Positions 43,546 through 46,940 of a stretch of DNA of 64,000 nt are shown here, in pieces. The stretch comes from Kitasatospora atroaurantiaca (GTDB taxonomy: Bacteria; Actinomycetota; Actinomycetes; Streptomycetales; Streptomycetaceae). The position numbers and the translations under genes were made by a program. Location of the stretch: positions 3,844,001 through 3,908,000 of the forward strand of contig NZ_VIVR01000001.1 of NCBI RefSeq assembly GCF_007828955.1, given 5' to 3'. The notes under the pieces were generated by a model that had not been told where the DNA came from, did not search any database, and saw only the letters and a list, made by a program, of their open reading frames with translations. The first letter of the stretch is position 1; every line of letters begins with the position of its first letter.

Positions 43546-45159
43546 TCAGGTCACGTCGCGGGTCATGTCGACGAAGCGGGAGTAGTGGCCCTGGAAGGCG
43601 ACCGTGATGGTGGCAGTGGGGCCGTTACGGTGCTTGGCCACGATCAGGTCGGCCTCGCCGGCGCGGGGGGACTCCTTCTCGTAGGCGTCCTCGCGGTGGA
43701 GCAGGATGACCATGTCGGCGTCCTGCTCGATCGAGCCCGATTCACGCAGGTCGGAGACCATCGGCTTCTTGTCCGTACGCTGCTCCGGGCCACGGTTCAG
43801 CTGGGACAGCGCGATCACCGGGACCTCGAGCTCCTTGGCCAGCAGCTTGAGGTTTCGCGACATGTCGGAGACCTCCTGCTGGCGGCTCTCGGCCCGGCGC
43901 GAGCCGCCCGACTGCATCAGCTGGAGATAGTCGATGACGACCAGCTTGAGGTCCTGCCGCTGTTTCAGACGGCGGCACTTGGCACGGATCTCCATCATCG
44001 ACAGGTTCGGCGAGTCGTCGATGTAGAGGGGAGCCGCCGTCACATCCGGCATCCGGCGGGCGACCCGCGTCCAGTCGTCGTCCGTCATGTTTCCGGAGCG
44101 CATGTGATGCAGGGCCACCCGCGCCTCGGCGGAGAGCAGACGCATGGCGATCTCGTTGCGCCCCATTTCGAGCGAGAAGATCACACTCGGCAGACCGTTG
44201 GTGATCGAACAGGCCCGGGAGAAGTCCAGGGCCAACGTCGACTTACCCATGGCGGGTCGTGCGGCGATGACGATCATCTGGCCCGGGTGGAGGCCGTTGG
44301 TGAGGGCGTCGAGGTCGGCGAAGCCGGTGGGGACGCCGGACATCTGGCCTGCGCGGGAGCCGATGGCCTCGATCTCGTCGAGGGCGCCCTCCATGATGTC
44401 GGCGAGCGGGGCGTAGTCCTCGCTGGTGCGCTGCTCGGTGACGGCGTAGATCTCGGCCTGGGCGGCGTTGACGATCTCGTCCACGTCGCCCTCGGCGGCG
44501 TAACCCATGCCGGCGATCCGGGTGCCCGCCTCGACCAGGCGGCGCAGGACGGCGCGCTCGTGGACGATCTCGGCGTAGTACTCGGCGTTGGCGGCGGTGG
44601 GGACGGAGTTGACCAGGGTGTGCAGGTAGCCGGGGCCGCCGACCCGGGTGAGTTCGCCGCGCTTGGTGAGCTCCCCGGCGACGGTGATGGGGTCGGCCGG
44701 CTCGCCGCGGGCGTAGAGGTCGAGGATGGCGCCGTGGATCAGCTCGTGGGCGGGCCGGTAGTAGTCGGCGGGCTTGAGCACCTCGACGACGTCGGCGATC
44801 GCGTCCTTGGAGAGCAGCATGCCGCCCAGCACGGACTGTTCGGCGGCGAGGTCCTGCGGCGGGACGCGCTCGAAGCCGTCCACAGCCTGGCGGGTGTCGT
44901 CGGAGCCCGACCCACCGTCACGCTTGCGCTTGTCCCCGAAGCCCCCCGAGCCGCCGAAACCACCTGAGCCACCCGCTCCACCGGAGCCGCCGCGCTGAAA
45001 GCCGCCCTTTCCTCCGCCCTCGGAGCTCTTGCGCGAGACCGGCAGGCGGTCTCCCGGGCCGTCCGGGAAGGGGCCGGGGGGGAAGGCGTCGTCGGACGGC
45101 TGCCAGTCATCCTCCGGTGGCGGAGGTACGTCGTGGTCGTCGTACTGGGGGCCGGTCAC
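43546..45159 (-). CDS. dnaB: Replicative DNA helicase
   Basis: A 537-residue ring helicase that unwinds DNA at the replication fork. The first ~75 residues are an acidic and Gly-rich extension (GGSGGAGGSGGFGGSGG). The DnaB N-terminal domain follows (PPQDLAAEQSVLGGMLLSKDAIADV), then the RecA-like core with Walker A ARPAMGKSTLALDF, Walker B LKLVVIDYLQLM and LSQLNRGPEQRTDKKPMVSDLRESGSIEQDADMV. It has no intein, which interrupts dnaB in some actinobacteria. The GTG at 45159 has GGGGA upstream. The region before it carries a cluster of DnaA boxes. Confidence 0.97.
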   Translation of the reverse strand: MTGPQYDDHDVPPPPEDDWQPSDDAFPPGPFPDGPGDRLPVSRKSSEGGGKGGFQRGGSGGAGGSGGFGGSGGFGDKRKRDGGSGSDDTRQAVDGFERVPPQDLAAEQSVLGGMLLSKDAIADVVEVLKPADYYRPAHELIHGAILDLYARGEPADPITVAGELTKRGELTRVGGPGYLHTLVNSVPTAANAEYYAEIVHERAVLRRLVEAGTRIAGMGYAAEGDVDEIVNAAQAEIYAVTEQRTSEDYAPLADIMEGALDEIEAIGSRAGQMSGVPTGFADLDALTNGLHPGQMIVIAARPAMGKSTLALDFSRACSITNGLPSVIFSLEMGRNEIAMRLLSAEARVALHHMRSGNMTDDDWTRVARRMPDVTAAPLYIDDSPNLSMMEIRAKCRRLKQRQDLKLVVIDYLQLMQSGGSRRAESRQQEVSDMSRNLKLLAKELEVPVIALSQLNRGPEQRTDKKPMVSDLRESGSIEQDADMVILLHREDAYEKESPRAGEADLIVAKHRNGPTATITVAFQGHYSRFVDMTRDVT

Positions 45160-45332
45160 GCGTGTTCCCCGATCAGCGAGTGGTGCGAGTTGGAGCAGGC
45201 CTTGCCGGTGACGCACCCTCTTTCATACGCCACCGCACCGACAAATCCGGCGCCGGGAGGGAGGTGTCGCGCGGGCGGCAGCGGTGGGTAAGCGACCACG
45301 CTAAGGGGCTGGACGCCGATCGGCCAAGATGG

Positions 45333-45421
45333 TTATCCACAGGGCATGTGGATGACGGGCCCTCACCTGTGGAGAACTCCCTCAAACCTGTGCACAAGTC
45401 TGTGGACACTACTGTGGATAA
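45333..45421. promoter_or_regulatory. Cluster of six DnaA-box-like sites upstream of dnaB
   Basis: Six 9-mers occur in 89 bases. They are TTATCCACA at 45333 (plus); on the minus strand TCATCCACA (45347-45355), TTCTCCACA (45368-45376), TTGTGCACA (45389-45397), GTGTCCACA (45401-45409) and TTATCCACA (45413-45421). Two are perfect E. coli-type boxes. The others differ by one base from TTATCCACA or the streptomycete TTGTCCACA. Starts are spaced 14, 21, 21, 12 and 12 bases. They lie between divergent dnaB and the MATE gene. Confidence 0.85.
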
Positions 45422-45572
45422 CCACACCATCTACCTGGCGTCAACCTGCTGACCTGCGGTTACTCCGTCCACGGGCTGTGCATGAGAAATACTTCACACA
45501 CTCAGGTCTCCCACCGTCGACCCCACCGACACCCGCCCTCGATCAAGATTTCGAGTAAGCATCCAAAGCTGC

Positions 45573-45602
45573 TTGCGCCTATTACCTGTGGATGAGTACT
45601 CT
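45573..45602 (+). promoter_or_regulatory. Predicted MATE promoter with a DnaA box in its spacer
   Basis: A -35-like TTGCGC (45573-45578) and -10 TACTCT (45597-45602) are 18 bases apart. The ATG follows six bases after the -10, so the message would be leaderless. The 9-mer TGTGGATGA at 45587-45595 (complement TCATCCACA) lies in the spacer. Confidence 0.55.
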
Positions 45603-45608
45603 GACCGC

Positions 45609-46940
45609 ATGACAAGCGCCTCCGCCCCGCCTCGCCGGCAGCACGACCGGGAGATCCTGGCCCTGGCCGTCCCGGCCTTCGGGGCGCTGGTCGCAGAGCC
45701 GCTCTTCCTGATGGCCGACTCCGCCATTGTCGGCCACCTCGGCACCGCTCAGCTGGCCGGTCTCGGGGTCGCCTCGGCGGCGCTCACCGCCGCCACCGGC
45801 GTCTTCGTCTTCCTGGCGTACGCGACCACCGCCGCCGTCGCCCGCAGGATCGGGGCGGGCGACCGCCAGGCCGCCATCCAGCAGGGCATCGACGGTATCT
45901 GGCTCGCCCTGCTGCTCTCGGTCGGCGTGGTCGTGCTGACCCTTGCACTGGCCCCCCAGGCCGCCACCGCACTGGGCGCCTCGCCGACGGCCGCCCCGTA
46001 CGCCGTCACCTACCTCCGGATCAGCGCCCTCGGCATCCCGGCGATGCTGATGGTGCTGGCCGCCACCGGCGTGCTGCGCGGCCTGCAGGACACCCGCACA
46101 CCGCTGCTGGTGGCCGTCGGCGGCTTCGCCTCCAACATCCTGCTCAACCTCGGCCTGGTGTACGGCGTCGGCCTGGGCGTGGCCGGCTCCGCCTGGGGAA
46201 CGGTGCTGGCGCAGAACGGGATGGCGGCCGCATACCTGCTGGTCGTGGTCCGCGGGGCCCGCCGGGAGCGGGCACGCCTGCGCCCCGACCCGGAAGGGAT
46301 ACGGGCCTGCGCCAAGGCCGGCGGACCGCTGATGGTCCGCACGCTGAGCCTGCGGGCCGTCCTGCTGATCGCCACCGCCGTGGCCGCCCGGCTCGGCGAC
46401 GCGGAGGTGGCGGCCCATCAGATCGCCATGACGCTCTGGGGGTTCCTGGCCTTCGCTCTGGACGCCATCGCGATCGCCGGCCAGGCCATCATCGGCCGCT
46501 ACCTCGGCGCCGGGGACGTCCCGGGCACCAGGGCGGCCACCCGGCGGATGGTCGAGTGGGGGGTCGGCTCGGGGATTGTGCTCGGGCTGCTGATGGTGGT
46601 CGCCAGGCCGCTGTACGTGCCGCTGTTCACCCCGGATCCGGCGGTCCAGGACCTGCTCTCCGCCGTTCTGCTGCTGGCGGCCCTGACCCAGCCGCTGGGC
46701 GGTCTGGTCTTCGTGCTGGACGGGGTGCTGATGGGCGCCGGCGACGGGACCTACCTGGCCTGGGCCATGCTGGCCACGCTCGCTGTCTTCGCCCCGGTCG
46801 CCTGGGCGGTGCCGGCGCTCGGCGGCGGCCTGATGGCGCTGTGGTGGGCGATGAACCTGTTCATGCTGGTACGGGCGCTGTTCCTGGGCCTGCGCACGCG
46901 GACCGGCAGCTGGCTGGTCACCGGAGCCGTGCGGGTCTGA
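45609..46940 (+). CDS. MATE-family efflux transporter (DinF-like)
   Basis: A 443-residue membrane protein with 12 segments: ILALAVPAFGALVAEPLFLMADSAIVGHLGTAQLAGLGVAS is the MATE start, ATGVLRGLQDTRTPLLVAVGGFASNILLN the second signature, and the C-terminal half repeats the fold (VAAHQIAMTLWGFLAFALDAIAIAGQ). It exports cationic or aromatic compounds with H+ or Na+. It lies between dnaB and rplI as is usual in Streptomyces. No ribosome site is seen, consistent with a leaderless transcript. Confidence 0.94.
   Translation: MTSASAPPRRQHDREILALAVPAFGALVAEPLFLMADSAIVGHLGTAQLAGLGVASAALTAATGVFVFLAYATTAAVARRIGAGDRQAAIQQGIDGIWLALLLSVGVVVLTLALAPQAATALGASPTAAPYAVTYLRISALGIPAMLMVLAATGVLRGLQDTRTPLLVAVGGFASNILLNLGLVYGVGLGVAGSAWGTVLAQNGMAAAYLLVVVRGARRERARLRPDPEGIRACAKAGGPLMVRTLSLRAVLLIATAVAARLGDAEVAAHQIAMTLWGFLAFALDAIAIAGQAIIGRYLGAGDVPGTRAATRRMVEWGVGSGIVLGLLMVVARPLYVPLFTPDPAVQDLLSAVLLLAALTQPLGGLVFVLDGVLMGAGDGTYLAWAMLATLAVFAPVAWAVPALGGGLMALWWAMNLFMLVRALFLGLRTRTGSWLVTGAVRV

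Follow-up and report, generated by a model that had tools for sequence, protein, structure and literature searches.

The window analysed here is a 64,000-nucleotide (64-kb) stretch of the Kitasatospora atroaurantiaca genome, in which the genes for the replicative DNA helicase, dnaB, and for a MATE family efflux transporter lie divergently across a gap that bears DnaA-box-like sites. The two genes are:

43546-45159, minus strand: dnaB, replicative DNA helicase (TIGR00665, 541.9 bits; cut-off 385)
45609-46940, plus strand: MATE family efflux transporter gene (TIGR00797, 323 bits; cut-off 147)

The dnaB start was picked by hand as the GTG at 45159, which has a GGGGA-type ribosome site just upstream, over a longer open reading frame extending to 45216. 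No tRNA or known RNA family was found in the 64-kb window. Six DnaA-box-like sites occupy 89 bp of the gap (45333-45421) with start-to-start spacings of 14, 21, 21, 12 and 12 bp, and a sequence scan of the window bears out the number, position and spacing that an earlier note on this DNA had assigned to them. These sites, together with two others closer to the MATE gene, are:

45333-45341, plus strand: box 1, perfect TTATCCACA
45347-45355, minus strand: box 2, TCATCCACA, one base off TTATCCACA
45368-45376, minus strand: box 3, TTCTCCACA, one base off TTATCCACA
45389-45397, minus strand: box 4, weak, TTGTGCACA, two bases off TTATCCACA and one off TTGTCCACA
45401-45409, minus strand: box 5, weak, GTGTCCACA, two bases off TTATCCACA and one off TTGTCCACA
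45413-45421, minus strand: box 6, perfect TTATCCACA
45477-45485, minus strand: weak box-like site, TCATGCACA, two mismatches
45587-45595, minus strand: box 7, TCATCCACA, one base off, 13 bp ahead of the MATE start codon

The earlier note had described the array as two perfect boxes and four sites one base away. Both perfect boxes stand, and just two of the other four are single-base variants of TTATCCACA; the weaker boxes 4 and 5 qualify as such if TTGTCCACA is also admitted as a box. This is reasonable because the perfect actinomycete DnaA box is given as TT(G/C)TCCACA (PMC4285127). The presence of several boxes is to be expected, as the S. coelicolor DnaA protein is reported to bind a single box weakly (PMC4285127). 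Boxes 4, 5 and 6 are separated by gaps of 3 bp, a pitch favoured by E. coli DnaA, for which box pairs 2-3 bp apart are described as preferred, binding being lost upon insertion of a single base (PMC11317965). Between box 6 and the predicted MATE promoter, the weak site at 45477 falls within a strongly conserved 24-bp element (45477-45500, TGTGCATGAGAAATACTTCACAC in the window), the conservation of which sits around +144 of box 1 in aligned family genomes.

As previously noted, the region is relatively AT-rich, with a GC content of 56.5% at 45300-45499 compared to 71.9% for the whole window. No point was found in favour of a chance accumulation of sites in this low-GC gap: simulated sequences (100 64-kb sequences from an order-3 Markov model and 5,000 intergenic stretches of order 1) never contained more than two sites per 89 bp, against the six observed, and the cluster is conserved in many genera. 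Chance was thus rejected and is in our judgement almost inconceivable. The density of boxes, comparable to that at oriC, and the GC content below that of the surroundings could also point to a secondary or cryptic replication origin. The oriC itself is located elsewhere, at 3927355-3927873 of the contig, where 18 box-like matches with at most one mismatch are flanked by dnaA and dnaN, whereas the present array is situated in a promoter gap; the second-origin reading was rejected on these grounds and is very improbable. The absence of dnaA and dnaN from the window, remarked on earlier, is correct, as both flank oriC 38 kb away.

Conservation among relatives, the absence of which the earlier note would have taken against its proposal, was looked for, and found, in DNA upstream of dnaB from 70 genomes of the genus Kitasatospora and 43 other Streptomycetaceae, to which five more were later added; one family genome with 224 bp of upstream DNA was left out of the family counts. 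Since these genomes are related, the counts given here are not independent. At least three boxes within 120 bp were found in 70/70 genus genomes and 40 of the 42 usable genomes from the rest of the family, compared to never more than one site per 120 bp for a reversed motif in the same genomes, and the five later additions contain three or four boxes each. Box 1 is present in every usable genome of the anchored family set (112/112), its invariance in the promoter, box 7 and column comparisons being by construction as it served there as the alignment anchor; the anchor-to-box-1 distance is variable and includes dnaB coding DNA. Most genomes repeat the distances +14, +35 and +80 relative to box 1, some being shifted by one base (e.g., +79). 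Within the genus, column identity is 0.84-1.0 in the boxes, compared to 0.74 for the spacers and 0.45 for the flank on the dnaB side. Box 4 (+56) was detected with at most one mismatch in a fraction of 0.76 of 46 genus genomes vs. 0.03 of 37 other family genomes, and box 5 (+68), with the same tolerance, in 0.30 of the genus genomes, making it largely a genus feature; outside the genus, both boxes are poorly matched or missing, and the tandem run with them.

A blind search for boxes 1-3 at exact spacing, allowing one mismatch, recovered this geometry once each in 129 of 150 family genomes, with none in the control. Of the 21 genomes lacking it, 12 were inspected, each of which retains two or more boxes ahead of dnaB with altered spacing. 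A scan of a public collection for the exact three-box pattern returned at least 116 matching stretches, including an Arthrobacter and a Microlunatus among those listed. In 109 of the 116 listed, the pattern lies upstream of dnaB, in the same orientation and at a distance of 211-532 nt; five of the remaining seven are too near a sequence end to include dnaB, and two are stretches of ~3 kb without dnaB.

The conserved boxes lie beside promoter-like elements on both sides of the gap:

45298-45303, minus strand: predicted dnaB -10, TAGCGT
45322-45327, minus strand: predicted dnaB -35, TTGGCC
45573-45602, plus strand: predicted MATE promoter, TTGCGC-N18-TACTCT (-35 read by hand)

On the dnaB strand, the pattern TTGNNN-N16-19-TANNNT occurs near box 1 in 109/117 family genomes and in 0/117 for each of two controls, and in 93 of the 117 the best-scoring -35 sits at an identical distance from box 1. 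In the window, the candidate is TTGGCC-18-TAGCGT, with a predicted start at ~45291; relative to this start, the centres of boxes 1-6 were calculated by hand to fall at about -46, -60, -81, -102, -114 and -126, such that boxes 2, 3 and 4 are two helical turns apart. The dnaB gene of S. coelicolor is listed as a member of the HrdB regulon (PMC6344877), and among the literature matches listed, none was identifiable by title as a study of a streptomycete dnaB promoter. On the opposite side, box 7 lies in the spacer that separates the predicted -35 and -10 elements of the MATE gene. A TANNNT motif 10 bp past the start of box 7, followed 4-8 nt on by the start codon, was found in 102/117 family genomes, with the strict box 7 pattern missing from 13 of the 117; transcription from the predicted MATE promoter would start at the MATE start codon or directly beside it. 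In the 104 genomes where both boxes 1 and 7 were found, the distance between them is exactly 254 bp in 73, and the sequence between them is just moderately conserved despite this fixed distance. When sought with this pattern, the box in the MATE promoter was absent from all 20 MATE-bearing genomes examined outside the family, and the idea of a class-wide feature was rejected.

Beyond the family, the boxes follow dnaB. In a hand-picked set of 55 genomes representing 36 other families of the class Actinomycetes, with at least one genome per family, two or more boxes were found within 500 nt upstream of dnaB in 44, and fewer than two in the other 11. The association holds with a MATE gene upstream (18/20), with rplI upstream (16/22) and with neither gene found (10/13), and the MATE gene was ruled out as sole target as the boxes persist with rplI or neither gene upstream. 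In mycobacteria, the upstream genes are presumably rplI-Rv0057, not MATE. In the 53 genomes with full-length upstream DNA (two of the 55 were dropped as too short), the first 500 nt contain 155 sites (permuted motifs averaged 4.1, with a maximum of 25), while the next 500 nt contain eight and the following 900 nt contain 19. Box orientation in the class genomes is biased, with 123 sites directed with dnaB transcription and 38 against it. Box spacing varies freely between families, and exact spacing is unsupported as a class-wide rule; a same-strand pitch of 12 bp, the most frequent one, occurs in 8/55 genomes, and the 14-bp inverted pair in 5/55. In other classes of the phylum, represented by 20 genomes hand-picked from 60 non-class matches, at least two boxes were found in 2/20, with ten sites in total vs. 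a permuted mean of 1.1 (maximum 4). The association of boxes with dnaB is common in the class Actinomycetes and sparse in the other classes of its phylum.

Taken on sequence grounds, the dnaB–MATE gap is likely to be a divergent control region read by DnaA, which would regulate dnaB as a transcription factor, most likely by activating it. In the proposed mechanism, DnaA would bind the array just upstream of the predicted dnaB promoter and regulate dnaB: a 5-bp gap separates box 1 from the predicted -35, and boxes 2-4 would be in the register of upstream activators, so that the supply of helicase would follow that of active DnaA. In the Streptomycetaceae, DnaA bound at box 7, inside the predicted MATE promoter, should block RNA polymerase. 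The sequences establish the sites, their repeated arrangement, their tie to dnaB and the conserved promoter-like elements; we infer that DnaA binds at the gap, that both promoters are functional, and that DnaA probably activates dnaB, probably represses MATE via box 7, and couples helicase expression to initiation. Activation of dnaB is the most likely direction, in preference to repression, given the position of the boxes and the behaviour of one mycobacterial mutant. The link between dnaB and DnaA raised in the earlier note is supported by the recurrent geometry, the promoter-like element, the independence from the neighbouring gene and the binding of DnaA in mycobacteria.

The closest known parallel is in the same class: in both M. 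tuberculosis (dnaB, Rv0057) and M. smegmatis, DnaA sites lie upstream of the same gene as here. DnaA is reported to bind upstream of dnaB in vitro in M. tuberculosis and in vivo in M. smegmatis, and a mycobacterial DnaA mutant with weaker binding at this region under-expresses dnaB (PMC7738170). Binding has thus been measured in mycobacteria (PMC7738170), whereas the Kitasatospora sites are known from sequence. Features particular to streptomycetes, in comparison with the mycobacterial dnaB region, are the spacing of the six boxes and the box in the MATE promoter. In a distant phylum, C. crescentus dnaB likewise has predicted DnaA boxes upstream and is placed in the DnaA regulon (PMC8203912). 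Cytosine methylation is another layer of dnaB control, beside the DnaA model and counted against it, as the upstream region of S. coelicolor dnaB is described as cytosine-methylated and 5-aza-dC raised the dnaB transcript (PMC10148868). With a DnaA array conserved next to the helicase promoter, the way in which bacteria with many chromosomes per hypha match their replication machinery to initiation becomes testable via a few base changes.

The array could alternatively be a DnaA sink near oriC, in which an early-copied cluster would sequester or inactivate DnaA and hold back renewed initiation, with any effect on dnaB being incidental. The cluster is indeed outside oriC yet near it, at 38 kb, and dnaB is reported to border the syntenic origin island of streptomycetes (PMC8743542). 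DnaA boxes outside oriC are likewise known from E. coli datA and from B. subtilis clusters, and non-oriC clusters near the origin are reported to repress untimely initiation in B. subtilis and S. coelicolor (PMC4585315, PMC5742627, PMC10950094; for S. coelicolor citing Smulczyk-Krawczyszyn 2006). A sink requires sites, but not a fixed spacing beside a promoter, an orientation bias or persistence when the neighbouring gene changes, and unlike datA and the B. subtilis clusters, the boxes of the dnaB gap keep a constant position with respect to a predicted promoter. This genome also has further groups of exact boxes available for such a role. We therefore regard a sink as a rather unlikely primary function, although DnaA titration may be a second role of the gap alongside the proposed control of dnaB.

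The other clusters of this genome bear on a further suggestion of the earlier note, that the array might be the cluster which restrains replication in S. coelicolor. Exact TTRTCCACA boxes were listed across the whole 7.87-Mb genome, giving 58 matches vs. 13 for the reversed pattern, and weaker sites were sought in selected stretches. Two box groups with four exact boxes separate serS from the prephenate dehydratase gene pheA (contig 4120895-4121261). Near oriC, contig positions 3952000-3983000 carry exact DnaA boxes beside a rhomboid-like gene; this stretch is present in both inverted and direct orientation, with long arms that are 100% identical and copies that differ slightly in length, a duplication that is possibly an assembly artefact. 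In S. coelicolor, a close relative in which box clusters are likewise found outside oriC but near it, Smulczyk-Krawczyszyn and co-workers reportedly described in 2006 three clusters known by the cosmid names H69, H24 and D78, and deletion of D78 is said to have raised replication, making D78 the restraining cluster. D78 reportedly lies towards serS/pheA, and H69 in the neighbourhood of rhomboid and crgA genes. The cluster in the serS–pheA gap is probably the counterpart of D78, and the reported replication phenotype would belong to a locus other than the dnaB gap. The suggested identity is thus probably wrong, given the separate serS-pheA cluster here and the reported position of D78. Because the serS-pheA and rhomboid-side clusters fit the reported positions of D78 and H69, the dnaB cluster may be H24. 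A literature search by the S. coelicolor cosmid names returned nothing on a dnaB–MATE cluster.

A second arrangement of boxes was observed elsewhere in the genome. Tandem pairs of the form TTATCCACA-N8-TTRTCCACA, 17 bp from start to start, occur seven times (six exact and one with a mismatch), with none for the reversed control. They are located outside the window, at the following contig positions:

2431347, tandem pair
2515955, tandem pair
3436924, tandem pair
4526507, tandem pair
5256736, tandem pair
5262766, tandem pair
5550018, tandem pair

The pairs adjoin comEA with a ComEC-like gene, a CpaE/TadZ-like ATPase gene with TadA, T2SSF and TadE genes, YifB and DprA, an SSB paralogue, an M23 peptidase gene next to rpsB, a DUF6099 gene and an mscL/MFS locus. 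The literature matches listed contained none combining "DnaA box" with com genes. Exact pairs, one or more per genome, were found in 56/70 genus genomes, with none in the control, and 28 of the 29 pairs read, one per genome, adjoin an orthologue of one of these genes. The 17-bp pairs are possibly a DnaA-box-like operator of a competence-type gene set or regulon, read by DnaA or by another protein. Tentatively, and with considerable doubt, Streptomycetaceae DnaA could be pictured as a promoter regulator with two spacing codes, in which the dnaB array would raise helicase, one box would silence MATE, and the 17-bp pairs would mark a DNA-uptake set (Tad pilus, ComEA-ComEC, YifB-DprA, SSB paralogue and M23 peptidase). 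If so, the replication state would set both the supply of helicase and competence-like functions.
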